Assembly (NCBI RefSeq): GCF_003952365.1
Contig: NZ_CP034443.1
Span: 737,001 to 801,000 of the forward strand
DNA length: 64,000 bases
DNA from: Mesorhizobium sp. M9A.F.Ca.ET.002.03.1.2
Lineage (GTDB): Bacteria > Pseudomonadota > Alphaproteobacteria > Rhizobiales > Rhizobiaceae
Direction of reading: 5' to 3'
Each line of letters starts with the position of its first letter. The first letter of the stretch is position 1. This document shows, one piece after another, positions 59,389 through 64,000 of this stretch. The notes under the pieces are model-generated. The model ran no database searches, was not told the DNA's origin, and worked only from the letters and a program-made list of their open reading frames with translations. Made by a program: the position numbers and the translations under genes.

Positions 59389-59465
59389 GGTCCCGTAGCT
59401 CAGTAGGATAGAGCGGCAGATTCCTAATCTGTAGGTCACAGGTTCGATTCCTGTCGGGATCACCA
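59389..59465 (+). tRNA. tRNA-Arg (anticodon CCT)
   Basis: A 77-base cloverleaf including the encoded CCA. Acceptor stem GGTCCCG pairs with CGGGATC (one G-T). The D-arm is TAGCTCAGTAGGATAGAG, the anticodon stem GCAGA/TCTGT carries the loop TTCCTAA giving anticodon CCT (reads AGG), and the T-arm is GGTTCGATTCC. It lies between the TetR operon and the flotillin operon; no integrase is next to it. Confidence 0.93.
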
Positions 59466-59701
59466 TGCTTTTTCAATTACTTAGGAAAGTGCTGCCGTAC
59501 TTTTTTGGAAACTGCTACGCGTTGTTCATGCGTTATGGTGTTTCGGCACACATCCCCAAGGAGACAAACGCCTCAGATCCGGTGCCCGTGCCGGCGTCTT
59601 CGACCGAGCGAAGCCCTCCTCATCGGCGGCCAAAAAACCGGGCGCCAAACAGATCGGGCGCGAAGCAATGCGCGCCCGACTACTGGTTCCGTTCAGGCAA
59701 T

Positions 59702-61426
59702 TCAGGCCTTTGGCGCCTCCGCCGCTGGCGCTGGAGGGGTGGCGACCAACCCGTCGTCCTCGCCGTCTGGATCGTCAAACACCTCCGCCTGATCGTCTTC
59801 AGCTTTCGATTTCTGAGCCTCCGGCCGCGCTGCGACGAGATCCTTCAGCGTGCCGCCGGCACCGGCGATTCCGGCCTCCTTCAGCAGCGCGTCGATCAGC
59901 GGCTTGTTGCCGGTGAACTTCAGCAGTTGGTCGGCGAGGTCGCCAGGGCCGGAGCGTTCGCCTTCTCCGCTTGACCGTCCGCCCGAAAAGCCAGCCGTGT
60001 CGAACACACGGATCGAGTCGATGCGGCTCGCGGGCTCCATCAGCGCCTTCAGCGACTCCGGCAGCATGGTGATGCGCGCCTGCGTCAGCTCAAGCTGGAT
60101 CAGACGGTCGGAAAGCAGGTTGCGCGCCTCGTTGGTGGCGCGGATGGTCGCGGCCTGCGCCTCGCCTTCCGCAACCACGCCATTGGCGCGCACCTTCATC
60201 GCCTCCGCCTCAGCGCGGGCTTCCACCAGCACAGCCTGGGCACGGTCTTCCGCCGCCGCCCTTTCCGCGCTGGCGCCGACGGTGACCGAGACGGCTTCCG
60301 ATTCAGCGGCTTCCTGCGCCTGAAGAACGGCGATCTGGCGAGCGCGGTCGGCGATTTCGCGTTCGCGCGCCGTCTGCACCTTTTCCTCCGCCGCAACCGT
60401 CAGCGCCTCGGCCTCGCGGGCCTTGGCTTCTGCCTGGCTGGTTTCCTGGCTCTTCTTGGCGATGGCCACCGCCATGTTCTGGCGGGACAGCTCGACCTCG
60501 CGCTCGGAATTGATGCGAGCTTCCTCCTTTGCGCGCTGCGCTTCCGCCGCATGTTCGGCGATCTCGCGTTCGCGGGCAATCTGCGCCGCCTGTTCGGCCA
60601 GCTTGGCGGCTTCCTCGGCCTTGGCCATTTCGGAGCGGGTCGCAGCCTGCTTGGAGACGACGTCGCGCTCCTGCTCAAGACGCGCCTCTTCCTCCTGCCG
60701 CTTCAGCGCGAACTTTTCGCGCGACGCGTTCAGGTCCTGCTCGGCGATGGCGACTTCGGTCTTTCGCGTAACCTCGTTGCGCTCCTTACGGCGCTGCTCG
60801 GTAATGGTCGTCAGCTTCGCCAAGCCGACAGCGTCGAAGGCGTTGGTTTCGTTGAAAAACTCCCGCGGAGTCTGGTCGAGGCCGGTGAGCGACACCGATT
60901 CCAGTTCAAGGCCGTTGGAGCGCAGGTCGGTCTCCACCGCGTCCTGCACCGCCTTCACGAAGTCGGAGCGGTTTTCGTGCAACTGGTCCAGCGTGTTACG
61001 GGCGGCGACCGAGCGCAGCGCGTCGACCAGCTTGGCTTCCACCAGATCTTGGATCGCCTTCGGGTCGTTGACGCGGTCGCCCAGCGTCTGTGCAGCTAAG
61101 CCGATGCCGTCATCCGTACCGTCAACGCGCACATAGAACTCAGCGCGGATGTCAACGCGCATGCGGTCGGAGGTGATGAAGGCGTCTTCGCGGCGGCGGT
61201 CGACCACCAGCTTGACGGTATTCAGCTTCACCTTGGCCAGCGCGTGCACGATGGGCAGGATCAGCGCGCCGCCATCCTTGACCACCCTGCGGCCGCCAAC
61301 GCCGGTGCGCACAAAGGCTTCGTCGCGTTCGGCGCGCTGGTAGAGCCGTCCGAGCACAAAGCCGATAACCGCCAGCACGAAGATGACGATGCCGGCCCAG
61401 ATCAGAAATTGTACGATATTGTCCAT
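59702..61426 (-). CDS. Flotillin family protein (YqiK-like)
   Basis: 574 residues. A membrane anchor at the start (FLIWAGIVIFVLAVIGFVLG) is followed by an SPFH/Band-7 domain (residues 30-200) and a long Ala/Glu-rich coiled coil with repeats of the form EAEAKAREAEALTV. The C-terminal part is flotillin-like. It assembles as oligomers in membrane microdomains. The ATG at 61426 follows GGGGCA; an in-frame TTG at 61438 is possible. It is the last gene of the PspA-like/YqiJ/flotillin operon, 58 bp after YqiJ. Confidence 0.9.
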   Translation of the reverse strand: MDNIVQFLIWAGIVIFVLAVIGFVLGRLYQRAERDEAFVRTGVGGRRVVKDGGALILPIVHALAKVKLNTVKLVVDRRREDAFITSDRMRVDIRAEFYVRVDGTDDGIGLAAQTLGDRVNDPKAIQDLVEAKLVDALRSVAARNTLDQLHENRSDFVKAVQDAVETDLRSNGLELESVSLTGLDQTPREFFNETNAFDAVGLAKLTTITEQRRKERNEVTRKTEVAIAEQDLNASREKFALKRQEEEARLEQERDVVSKQAATRSEMAKAEEAAKLAEQAAQIAREREIAEHAAEAQRAKEEARINSEREVELSRQNMAVAIAKKSQETSQAEAKAREAEALTVAAEEKVQTAREREIADRARQIAVLQAQEAAESEAVSVTVGASAERAAAEDRAQAVLVEARAEAEAMKVRANGVVAEGEAQAATIRATNEARNLLSDRLIQLELTQARITMLPESLKALMEPASRIDSIRVFDTAGFSGGRSSGEGERSGPGDLADQLLKFTGNKPLIDALLKEAGIAGAGGTLKDLVAARPEAQKSKAEDDQAEVFDDPDGEDDGLVATPPAPAAEAPKA

Positions 61427-61484
61427 AATATGCCCCAAGTTTTGAAAGAGGTTGAGATTCCGCCCTGCTCAGAGTCCTCTCTGA

Positions 61485-62102
61485 CTACTCGCCCTCCTCG
61501 AACGGCATGACGAGCCAGACGCGACCTGGTCCCTCGGCGGCTTCCACCACGACGACCTCTGCGCCTTTCTCGATTTTCATTCCCGCATCGGCAGGACGCG
61601 CCCGCAGCGTGTGCAATTCGCCATATTCGTCGCGCACCCGAATCGAGCCGGGCGGGCCGTCGTCCAGCGGCCCGAGCGAAACTATGCCGCGCCGCCCGAC
61701 CAGGCGATCATGGTTGACCACATAGGTTTCGTCCTGCGGCAGCAGATGCGCGATCCAGCCGGCGGTGATTTTGGTCACCATCACCGCCGCAGGCACCGCG
61801 CCGATGGCGAAGCTCCACACCGGCAAAACGGGGAAGATTTGCCACAGCATGATCCCGACCATTCCGAAGGTCACCGAAAGCAACATCATCAGGATCGAGA
61901 AGGGAACGCGACCGAAGTTCAGCCAGTCGAACAATTCGCCGAGATGCGTAGCGTCAAGAAAGTGATCGAAGGCGCCCTCACCGCCGCCATGGTCGAAATT
62001 ACCGGCCCCGACGAAGTACAGGACGATTTGCAGGATGCCCAGCAACAGCCCCGCCAGCAACGGGTAGAGATAGAGCGCAGGTGCGTTGAGGAGGTCTGCC
62101 AT
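61485..62102 (-). CDS. YqiJ/OB-fold membrane protein (NfeD-like)
   Basis: 205 residues. Two to four hydrophobic segments (YLYPLLAGLLLGILQIVLYF, SILMMLLSVTFGMVGIMLWQ and VWSFAIGAVPAAVMVTKITA) precede a C-terminal OB-fold domain of NfeD type (LVGRRGIVSLGPL, GSIRVRDEYGELHTLRA). YqiJ proteins partner with flotillin YqiK. Starts five bases after the PspA-like gene stop, so all three genes are in one operon. Confidence 0.86.
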   Translation of the reverse strand: MADLLNAPALYLYPLLAGLLLGILQIVLYFVGAGNFDHGGGEGAFDHFLDATHLGELFDWLNFGRVPFSILMMLLSVTFGMVGIMLWQIFPVLPVWSFAIGAVPAAVMVTKITAGWIAHLLPQDETYVVNHDRLVGRRGIVSLGPLDDGPPGSIRVRDEYGELHTLRARPADAGMKIEKGAEVVVVEAAEGPGRVWLVMPFEEGE

Positions 62103-62107
62103 CGGCG

Positions 62108-63226
62108 TTACTTCTCGCCCTTGAGTTCACTGCGAAGCGCGGCCAGCCGGTCGTCAATCCGCCGCTGGCGGCCAAATTCTTCGAGCTCGGCCAGATCATT
62201 GTCGCGCGCCGTGCCGGCGGGCAGGTCGGTCAGCCGCGCCACGCTGGACAGGGCCGCCGCTATGCGATCTTCCGGCGCCGGCTTGCGAAAGCGACCCGTG
62301 GCGGCGGTCGCGCCGGGCGCCTGCGCCTCGCGGGCGCGCCGCGCGATCTTCACCCGCTCCTCAGCGTCGCGACGCGCTGCGCTCGCTGCATTCAAGGCCC
62401 CACGCGCTTCATCGATGCGTACATCCACGTCGTAGATCAACTTGTCGATGGAGGTAACCTGCGCGTCGATGTCGTCCTGTCGGCCGATGCCGGCGCGGGC
62501 GAGATCCTCGCGGCCGTCTTGCAGCGCGATGCGAATGTTCTGATCCAGGCCCTCGCGCTCGGCGGTGAGGTCGCCCTTTTGCAGCGTGTAGCGCTTGCGC
62601 TCGGCGATCAGCGCGGCAAGGTTGGACTTCAACTCGTCGGCGGCCTTGTCGATCTCGCGGATCGCCTGCTCGGCCACCGCCTCGGGAGCCTTCTTCTCCA
62701 GACCGTCGATCACGGTCGTGACCAGGCCAGCGGCAAGGCGCGAAACGCGCCCAGAAATGGATTCGGTCTGCATCGCTTCGATCTCCCTATGTTGCATGTC
62801 CGCCGAAAGCGGAACGGTGAGTGAATAGTATCCGCTCTCGCGCACGAGATGGGACAGTTGCGCCTTCTCTTGGCTGTCGGAATAGCCGGTGGCCAGAAAG
62901 CCGGCGATCACCCGCCCCTCGACGGTGGAAATCGACACCTTGTCGACCCCTTTGAAGGACATGAGCTTATCGTCGAGTGGCAGACGGTCGAACGACCAGG
63001 CGCCGGAGGCGTATTCACGGATGCCGTTGGTGACGAGCCGCGCCGGCAGGCCAGTCTCCGCCCGGATCGCCTCATAGGCGAGTTTCTGCAGTTCGAAAGT
63101 ATTGGTGCGGTGGGCCGAGCCAGTGCGATCCAGAACGTCGTGCATGGCGGCATAGGCGGCGAATGTCGCCTCGACGTCGCGCTCGCCGGCTTGGTCCAGG
63201 ATCAGCTTGTAACGCGCTTTCTTCAT
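62108..63226 (-). CDS. PspA/IM30-like coiled-coil protein with a TnpB-like N-terminal domain
   Basis: 372 residues. The C-terminal 220 residues are a PspA/IM30-type helical coiled coil (ISGRVSRLAAGLVTTVIDGL, PEAVAEQAIREIDKAADEL, IALQDGREDLARAGIGRQDD). Residues 1-150 are different: LQKLAYEAIRAETGLPARLV and IREYASGAWSFDRLPLDDKL, LMSFKGVDKVSISTVEGRV, then GYSDSQEKAQL and SGYYSLTV. That order and wording follow the N-terminal (REC/WED) half of TnpB-type IS605 transposon nucleases, ending where the RuvC domain would start. No nuclease residues follow. This looks like an exapted RNA-binding module joined to a membrane-stress protein. First gene of the operon; starts after GGAGGAACAAA. Confidence 0.8.
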   Translation of the reverse strand: MKKARYKLILDQAGERDVEATFAAYAAMHDVLDRTGSAHRTNTFELQKLAYEAIRAETGLPARLVTNGIREYASGAWSFDRLPLDDKLMSFKGVDKVSISTVEGRVIAGFLATGYSDSQEKAQLSHLVRESGYYSLTVPLSADMQHREIEAMQTESISGRVSRLAAGLVTTVIDGLEKKAPEAVAEQAIREIDKAADELKSNLAALIAERKRYTLQKGDLTAEREGLDQNIRIALQDGREDLARAGIGRQDDIDAQVTSIDKLIYDVDVRIDEARGALNAASAARRDAEERVKIARRAREAQAPGATAATGRFRKPAPEDRIAAALSSVARLTDLPAGTARDNDLAELEEFGRQRRIDDRLAALRSELKGEK

Positions 63227-63242
63227 TTTGTTCCTCCTACCT

Positions 63243-63261
63243 AATCACTTAAATAGTGATT
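63243..63261. promoter_or_regulatory. Candidate operator A of the PspA-like/YqiJ/flotillin operon
   Basis: AATCACTTAAATAGTGATT is a 7-bp-arm dyad with five central bases, 17 bases upstream of the first ATG (63226). A close copy stands at 63280-63298. Confidence 0.6.
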
Positions 63262-63279
63262 GCAGAGAATTCAAGGGTA

Positions 63280-63298
63280 AATCACCAAAATGGTGATT
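63280..63298. promoter_or_regulatory. Candidate operator B of the PspA-like/YqiJ/flotillin operon
   Basis: AATCACCAAAATGGTGATT is the second copy of the dyad, with centre 37 bases from that of copy A. Two matched sites with shared AATCAC/GTGATT arms suggest cooperative binding of one dimeric regulator; no regulator gene is nearby in the window. Confidence 0.6.
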
Positions 63299-63764
63299 GA
63301 GCTATTGGAGGGGTTAATTGGGCGTGGAGATGACCCGAAAATTGCGCGATTGAAGATTGGTTGGCGATAAGGCCGCAGCAGCTGGCCGAAATGCAACCAT
63401 ACGACGTGTGGAGCCGATCGGCCGACCAGCGCGCAGTGCCGCCGGCAGTCAATGTTCCGTCTTTGGTGCCCCCATTGCCGTGGTCCACTTCATCAGTACA
63501 CGCCGCAAAGCCGCGGGCGGAAATGGCCGACGGGGCAATATCGGTGGAGGCGTGCGCATAGGAGAAGTATCCTTCGTGGCAGGCGCATGAACTTACCGTC
63601 TTGCATGTCCTGATGCCCCAGGCGCCGACCTCCTGGCGCTGGCTGCGCGCTAGGCAATGGCGACAGGGTCGGCGCGAACCGGCTCGCCAGTTCTTCCAGG
63701 CCACGGTCATTGTAGCGCGTGAGGGACCTTGCAACCGCTCTTGCGCGGTTGCGGCCGCGCCCGA
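63299..63764. other. Intergenic region between the PspA-like operon and the ABC ATPase gene
   Basis: About 466 bases without a supportable gene. An open frame on the minus strand across 63282-63734 has no family pattern and is rejected. Nothing else was recognised except the hairpin at 63731-63752. The promoter of the minus-strand operon must lie at its left side near the two operator dyads. Confidence 0.5.
63731..63752 (-). terminator. Terminator-like hairpin after the ABC ATPase gene
   Basis: GCAACCGC (63731-63738) and GCGGTTGC (63745-63752) pair perfectly with a 6-base loop, 12 bases after the ATPase stop codon on the minus strand. No T run is clear, so termination is probable but not certain. 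Confidence 0.55.
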
Positions 63765-64000
63765 TCAGATACGCCGGCCGGTTTTCGCGTCGAACAAATG
63801 GGCGCAGGCGCGATCGATCTCGATCCGCACCTGGGCGCCCTGCCTGAGCGGCAACCGCTCCCGGAAAAGGCAGGAAATTTCCTCGCCGGCGCAGTCGACC
63901 TTGGCGAAGATTTCCGAACCTGTGGCTTCCAGGAGTGTGACCGTGCCGGGCAAGCCCTGGGCAGTTGCGCGGATATGTTCGGGGCGGATGCCGTAGACAA
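63765..64000 (-). CDS. MalK/UgpC-type ABC transporter ATPase, C-terminal end (partial)
   Basis: Only the last 78 codons are inside the window. VYGIRPEHIR, the conserved regulatory-domain motif, is followed by a TOBE-type beta strand region (TVTLLEATGSEIFAKVDCAG, then RERLPLRQGAQVRIEIDRAC) and ends FDAKTGRRI. This is the usual C-terminus of ATPases for sugar or glycerol-3-phosphate ABC importers. The Walker motifs lie outside the window. Which permease it serves is unknown. Confidence 0.88.
   Translation of the reverse strand, partial: VYGIRPEHIRATAQGLPGTVTLLEATGSEIFAKVDCAGEEISCLFRERLPLRQGAQVRIEIDRACAHLFDAKTGRRI

Follow-up and report, generated by a model that had tools for sequence, protein, structure and literature searches.

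The window analyzed here is a 64,000-nucleotide stretch of the genome of Mesorhizobium sp. M9A.F.Ca.ET.002.03.1.2, and its minus strand carries an operon that begins with an open reading frame of 372 amino acids (62108-63226). Both this frame and the motifs quoted in the original prediction were recovered from the sequence. Domain matches and fold comparison identified the gene as a fusion of a TnpB-type recognition lobe with a PspA/IM30 protein. The PspA/IM30 part (residues 152-372; 62111-62773, minus strand) begins with the helix-0 region and coincides with the predicted product of an internal start. Residues 160-302 matched PF04012 with 38.3 bits against a gathering score of 33.9, upholding the claimed fusion to PspA/IM30, and the same model was matched by all 35 aligned homologues. 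The threshold of the equivalog PspA model TIGR02977 was not reached (30.1 versus 242.95 bits), and by profile score the part is a relative of the classical PspA equivalog, not a member. Coiled-coil and helix-0 regions were found in it; its polymerization on membranes is predicted only. A second PF04012 match and a guided_TnpB match were both lacking in the window's genome. Downstream lie the genes for a YqiJ-type membrane protein with an OB fold (61485-62102, minus strand; PF07290 and PF21001 above cutoff) and for a flotillin with SPFH/Band 7 and Flot domains (59702-61438, minus strand, start codon uncertain; PF15975 at 88.3 bits and PF01145 at 27 bits, both above cutoff). This order of lobe-PspA, YqiJ and flotillin was found in all 81 loci tested, in agreement with the proposal that the fusion gene leads a flotillin operon.

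TnpB is the accessory nuclease of IS200/IS605 and IS607. Folded alone, the N-terminal lobe (residues 1-140; 62807-63226, minus strand) gave a predicted model with a pLDDT of 90.4, in which WED strand 1 occupies residues 2-9, the REC helices residues 12-34, 43-58 and 62-74, and the WED beta barrel residues 81-139. Of the best 50 structural matches listed for this model, 49 were of TnpB, Fanzor or Cas12 type, which is the outcome that the fold comparison suggested in the original prediction called for. The lobe was folded separately because a structure search with the full-length model (VIA-align) placed all 50 listed matches on the coiled-coil region. The companion suggestion, a profile search, had a divided outcome: curated TnpB profiles gave no direct match to the N-terminus of the single protein, but TnpB relatives aligned over all of residues 1-140, co-linear with one TnpB clade. 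OrfB_IS605, Cas12f1-like_TNB and guided_TnpB had no match in the fusion protein and were matched by two full-length related TnpBs that were scanned; sequence relatives and folds were therefore used instead of curated profiles. A PDB-chain sequence search with a five-row lobe alignment returned no TnpB/Cas12 match, and its five weak matches to other proteins were taken as chance. The case for the lobe fold rests on the predicted structure and on the intermediate TnpB relatives. From about residue 150 onward the sequence is that of PspA, and no RuvC match was obtained, in keeping with the suggestion that the nuclease half is gone. Judged by alignment and predicted fold, the fusion gene encodes a recognition lobe that was domesticated from TnpB and joined in frame to PspA.

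The phylogenetic spread of the fusion, raised in the original prediction as a point to check, was established with a lobe profile. This profile matched 25 of 397 Hyphomicrobiales genomes, one of them through a full TnpB, leaving 24 genomes with the fusion (the window's own included), and 6 of 385 alphaproteobacterial genomes, two in Hyphomicrobiales and four outside the order. Eight further genomes assigned to the genus of the window were scanned and all lacked the fusion, which is nevertheless present in records named Mesorhizobium, so its distribution is patchy. A tRNA gene on the plus strand (59400-59462, the match beginning at the edge of the searched stretch) ends about 240 bp past the end of the flotillin gene and, together with this patchiness, might be the trace of an integration site. 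When 59 lobes were placed in a tree, some of whose branches are long, the 36 fusions formed one side of a branch (100/99) and seven standalone lobes another branch (100/100). One full TnpB related to the lobe (L130, the same gene as L157), a 419-amino-acid open frame with RuvC- and zinc-like motifs from a Hyphomicrobiales genome, sits on a very long branch of this tree. No TIGR01765 match was found in 100 genomes, and 50,697 phage records searched with the lobe by tblastn gave nothing at E values up to 1. Weak plasmid matches in Caballeronia and Pseudomonas syringae were rejected where translated, their translations being unlike TnpB; another weak match falls in a sugar transferase gene.

The fused lobe differs from its relatives in charge. 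Mean net charge was −2.2 in 89 fusions versus +4.2 in 16 related TnpB lobes (some taken from fragments, and including two acidic ones from halophiles) and +6.7 in seven standalone lobes. Not one of 36 fusion representatives has a basic residue at the positions aligned to residues 43, 67, 71 and 77, which in TnpB and standalone lobes are mostly basic; positions 55, 87, 92 and 105 are still basic in the fusions, and positions 63, 70 and 76 are basic chiefly there. Loops before and within the WED barrel are shorter in fusions than in TnpB or standalone lobes. No Rfam guide-RNA family was found at the operon (59400-64000), which is weak evidence, as Rfam holds described families only. These differences indicate a change in TnpB-style nucleic-acid binding in the fused lobe. 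The original prediction supposed that the RNA-binding half had been kept, possibly for RNA or nucleic-acid sensing; with a negative lobe charge, the basic positions of TnpB lost, RuvC absent and no Rfam match, sensing through a retained omegaRNA-binding half no longer stands as the lead view.

An internal start is also conserved across the fusion loci. An ATG stands just 5′ of the PspA helix-0 motif in all 109 fusion loci; in the window it is Met152 (62771-62773, minus strand), with a Shine-Dalgarno-like AGGGAG (62783-62788, minus strand) 9 nt on its 5′ side. With the best-scoring ATG at that place counted for each locus, 103 of the 109 reached a Shine-Dalgarno duplex score of at least −6 kcal/mol in strength. 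The mean duplex score at the internal start was −9.0 (81 loci), whereas elsewhere in these genes it was −2.1 over the remaining codon positions and −1.7 over 397 further in-frame ATGs; this first test located 81 of 89 loci by motif, and a later one located all 109. Across 46 distinct upstream stretches the mean was −8.76 versus −4.73 (s.d. 0.39) in synonymous-codon shuffles, none of 200 shuffles being as low as observed. Under the same best-of rule, −6 was reached in 1.8% of other stretches with an in-frame ATG (a set that includes one TnpB, L130). The first start of the window scored −10.2 and Met152 −9.0. Six loci have a weaker internal Shine-Dalgarno (L055, L096, L138, L145, L147 and L151); three of these (L145, L147 and L151) belong to one genus-level group and retain the ATG with a score of −2.9, whereas four other members of that group scored −6.4, and the short form may be made less in those three. 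Judging from its conservation, the internal ATG would also yield a lobe-less PspA, and we infer that both starts are used.

Upstream of the fusion gene, a palindrome-like site could be assigned in all 109 loci, some sites being imperfect (among them that of L158). Five were assigned by eye (L156, L158, L043, L150 and L151), and all five fit the base-3 rule given below; L155 (a duplicate of L131), L130/L157 (the full TnpB) and L123/L134 (the window itself) lie outside the 109. The two 7-nt arms are identical in 72 of 109 loci, and the commonest form is AAAGCAC-N7-GTGCTTT. The window and its Mesorhizobium/Aminobacter relatives carry two copies of AATCAC-N7-GTGATT, located in the window by exact pattern search at 63243-63261 and, 37 bp farther upstream, at 63280-63298 (neither assigned a strand), which we regard as candidate operators. 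Within 140 nt upstream, 22 of 33 cluster representatives had 7/7 arm pairs (0.8% of shuffles) and 30 had at least six (14% of shuffles). In 9 of 11 fusion genomes the main pattern, allowing at most one mismatch, had a single site, always beside the fusion gene; the other two had no main-pattern site and carry the variant half-sites GTCCTTT and GTGTTTT, and a reversed control pattern gave 0-2 sites per genome. The exact AATCAC-N7-GTGATT occurs only twice in the window's 6.4-Mb genome, both times upstream of the fusion gene. In all, the palindrome pattern was confined to the region upstream of the fusion gene in 10 of the 12 genomes searched. Many main-class loci have the palindrome between a −35-like TTGAAA and a −10-like TATGTT, and TTG[AT] adjoins the left arm in 84 of 109 loci (some read on the opposite strand in this count). 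No clear promoter elements surround the palindrome in Mesorhizobium, and a simple pattern for sigma-54-like promoters found none in the upstream stretch of 16 loci.

The identity of the half-site bases followed two residues of the lobe across the 109 loci, which an 80% identity threshold sorts into 33 clusters. All 98 loci with arginine at residue 63 (window codon 63038-63040, minus strand) had G as the third half-site base in one arm or both, and all 11 with glutamine there had C or A; no other lobe column had the full association with base 3. Counted by arm, R63 occurred with G 178 times and with A 18 times, and Q63 with C 19 times and A three times, an A replacing G in one arm in 18 of the 98 R63 loci. 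The best column for base 4 was residue 47 (glutamine in the window; codon 63086-63088, minus strand), with a normalized mutual information (NMI) of 0.939 over the 33 clusters when unlike arms are scored as C. Of 96 loci with H47, 91 carried C in each arm and the other five had A in one of the two; Q47 was accompanied by A in 11 of 11 loci, N47 by A in one locus and T47 by T in one. When labels were permuted over the 33 representatives, the observed value was reached in 0 of 500 permutations for residue 63 and 0 of 500 for residue 47.

These values depend on how unlike arms are coded: NMIs of 1.000 and 0.939 were obtained with base 3 taken as G if either arm has G and base 4 as C where the arms differ. 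With unlike-arm rows dropped, residue 63 scored 0.922 (30 rows) and residue 47 scored 0.937 (31 rows). Coding the two arms as a pair lowered the scores to 0.766 and 0.815, respectively, and with hand-entered rows removed both were 1.000 (30 rows). Residues 63 and 47 ranked first under all three alternative codings. On the same 33 rows, where the lobe reached 1.000 for base 3 and 0.939 for base 4, the best of 219 PspA-part columns reached 0.568 and 0.671, respectively, and the best of 211 YqiJ columns 0.537 and 0.533. Flotillin columns came closer, reaching 0.909 and 0.914 versus 1.000 and 1.000 for the lobe in the 24 rows for which a flotillin was found. When changes were mapped on a tree built from PspA-part sequences, only residue 63 among 136 columns matched the base-3 changes exactly (2 of 2); residue 47 coincided with three of four base-4 changes, a count at which residue 69 ties with it, although by NMI residue 69 (0.752) falls below residue 47. 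Taken alone, the association of residue 63 with base 3 rests on few events, two changes each on the tree. The covariation as a whole thus draws on a small number of independent events, and its strength lies in how specific the columns are.

Both residues were located on ISDra2 TnpB by alignment. Residue 63 aligns with F77, and residues 62 and 66 with K76 and Q80; in the published account of ISDra2 TnpB, K76, F77 and Q80 touch the TAM duplex, and cleavage is abolished by K76A and Q80A and reduced by F77A (PMC10097598). Residue 47 belongs to the helix in which ISDra2 has Y52 and S56 and is placed by MAFFT at G53, beside Y52, the register of helix 2 relative to ISDra2 being uncertain. The reading that we favor from this covariation is that the lobe recognizes the promoter DNA of its own operon in a sequence-specific manner, DNA binding itself being what we infer. 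The negative mean charge of the fused lobe speaks against this reading.

PspA-type proteins self-assemble and bind stressed membranes. We assign a probability of about 0.7 to the reading that a TAM reader, fused to a bacterial ESCRT-III protein, has been exapted to autoregulate by binding DNA without RNA, with the operon repressed at rest. The TnpB lobe reads a short TAM motif in double-stranded DNA; without RuvC, and apparently without a guide RNA, the fused lobe would read both half-sites of the palindrome upstream of its own gene. Base 3 of the half-site would face residue 63, on REC helix 3, and base 4 would be specified by residue 47, on helix 2. Self-assembly of PspA would supply the dimer or oligomer that a palindrome requires. 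Most likely, lobe-PspA oligomers would occupy the promoter palindrome at rest and repress the operon. Under membrane stress the PspA part would be drawn to the membrane together with YqiJ and flotillin, emptying the operator, and the emptied operator would allow more lobe-PspA, YqiJ and flotillin to be made. The second start would add a lobe-less PspA effector able to build the coat without occupying DNA.

Alternatively, a dedicated transcription factor encoded elsewhere would read the palindrome, and the lobe would be only a protein adaptor, coupling PspA to YqiJ and flotillin or limiting PspA polymerization. An adaptor would fit with the loss from the lobe of the basic residues of its TnpB relatives, and related PspA-flotillin operons have a separate CesT/Tir-like partner, proposed to be a chaperone in the section of PMC11237479 that treats them. 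We nonetheless consider this rival unlikely, for an unlinked factor leaves unexplained why lobe columns 63 and 47 outperform every PspA and YqiJ column, and the site is the sole one found in 10 of the 12 genomes searched. Nor does a neighboring gene of at least 90 codons offer itself as the regulator, a candidate rejected on the flanks of 22 loci, where no open reading frame of at least 90 amino acids outside the operon was widely conserved (the most widely shared matched four other genera); a small or distant regulator gene is conceivable.

Covariation identifies the DNA that is recognized but is silent on the sign of regulation, and the lobe might read the operator as an activator, or stress might alter binding without sequestration at the membrane. 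Both variants appear improbable given the many main-class loci in which the palindrome falls between the −35-like and −10-like elements, a position from which a bound dimer should obstruct polymerase. Least probable by our estimate, at well under one chance in ten, is a lobe that still binds RNA and turns PspA into a membrane effector that senses RNA or nucleic acid: the lobe fold is intact and positions 55, 87, 92 and 105 remain basic, but the omegaRNA scaffold of TnpB is described as held mainly by WED and RuvC (PMC10097598) and RuvC is missing here, net charge has dropped with loss of the clade's basic positions, and no Rfam guide-RNA family (of those described) lies at the locus.

In Escherichia coli, PspA is both an effector and a negative regulator of its own operon, inhibiting the separate sigma-54 activator PspF. 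The autoregulator proposed here would likewise combine effector and own-operon negative regulator in one protein, with the difference that its PspA would itself contact DNA. The operons with a CesT/Tir partner resemble the fusion operon in bringing together PspA, a TM+Band 7+flotillin protein and a YqiJ-type protein, but the section describing them does not mention a TnpB lobe on PspA (PMC11237479). Similarly, in the YdjI-PspA system of Bacillus subtilis an SPFH protein is needed to localize PspA to the membrane, as the fusion operon has flotillin alongside PspA, whereas the abstract on that system mentions no DNA-reading lobe on its PspA (PMC8581546).

Compared with TnpB (ISDra2 as reference), the fusion retains the WED/REC lobe, comprising beta-1, the REC helices and the WED barrel. 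It differs in having neither RuvC nor a TNB/zinc domain, in the replacement of helix-3 basic residues and in the fused PspA, with no guide RNA found at the operon by Rfam search; the 36 fusions form one group among the 59 lobes. The nearest relative in idea is TldR, described as TnpB-derived, RNA-guided transcription factors (PMC13418256), which share with our proposal the exaptation of a TnpB descendant for transcription control. Unlike the RNA-guided TldR of that description, the fusion has the recognition lobe alone, a palindromic site and no guide RNA that we could find; an inactive RuvC remnant, a feature of TldR, was sought in the fusion without a match, PspA coming after the lobe. The word TnpB does not occur in the main text of two surveys of PSP systems (PMC11237479 and PMC9239133), nor the word transposase in that of PMC11237479. 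Among the matches listed in searches of titles and abstract openings in the open-access literature, none described a TnpB-PspA fusion or an RNA-free transcription factor made from a TnpB lobe.

We put at slightly better than even the chance that the lobe has become a DNA-binding domain of a new class, sequence-specific and independent of RNA, whose residue-to-base code can be read. Such a domain would tie an ESCRT-III repair protein directly to its own promoter and would perhaps also be at work in standalone lobes of Paenibacillaceae. As part of this reading, the code as it appears from the covariation would pair R63 with G and Q63 with C or A at base 3, and H47 with C, Q47 or N47 with A, and T47 with T at base 4. 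In our judgment, novelty as a class stands or falls with DNA binding. If the reading is correct, the motif-reading half of a CRISPR-type enzyme has become a transcription factor without RNA or nuclease. This would provide a natural and compact DNA reader, one that might be programmable, and would show how TAM specificity changes. The operon would moreover be a self-contained envelope-stress system in which the membrane-remodeling protein regulates its own gene, and the covariation makes the proposal testable by single-residue swaps.

Standalone, RuvC-less TnpB lobes of about 175 amino acids were found at L032:4998-5528 and L132:8001-8543, the named members coming from Thermobacillus and Paenibacillus. 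They keep a positive charge and lie on plasmids with T2SS/T4P-type ATPase genes close by, and one sits directly downstream of a replication-relaxation family gene. A short lobe-like hypothetical protein of 175 codons, possibly a decayed TnpB, is encoded on an Allomeiothermus plasmid (L133:2492-3019), with a second short hypothetical gene 243 bp downstream. Upstream of the Thermobacillus standalone lobe, at a distance of 43 nt, lies an imperfect palindrome.
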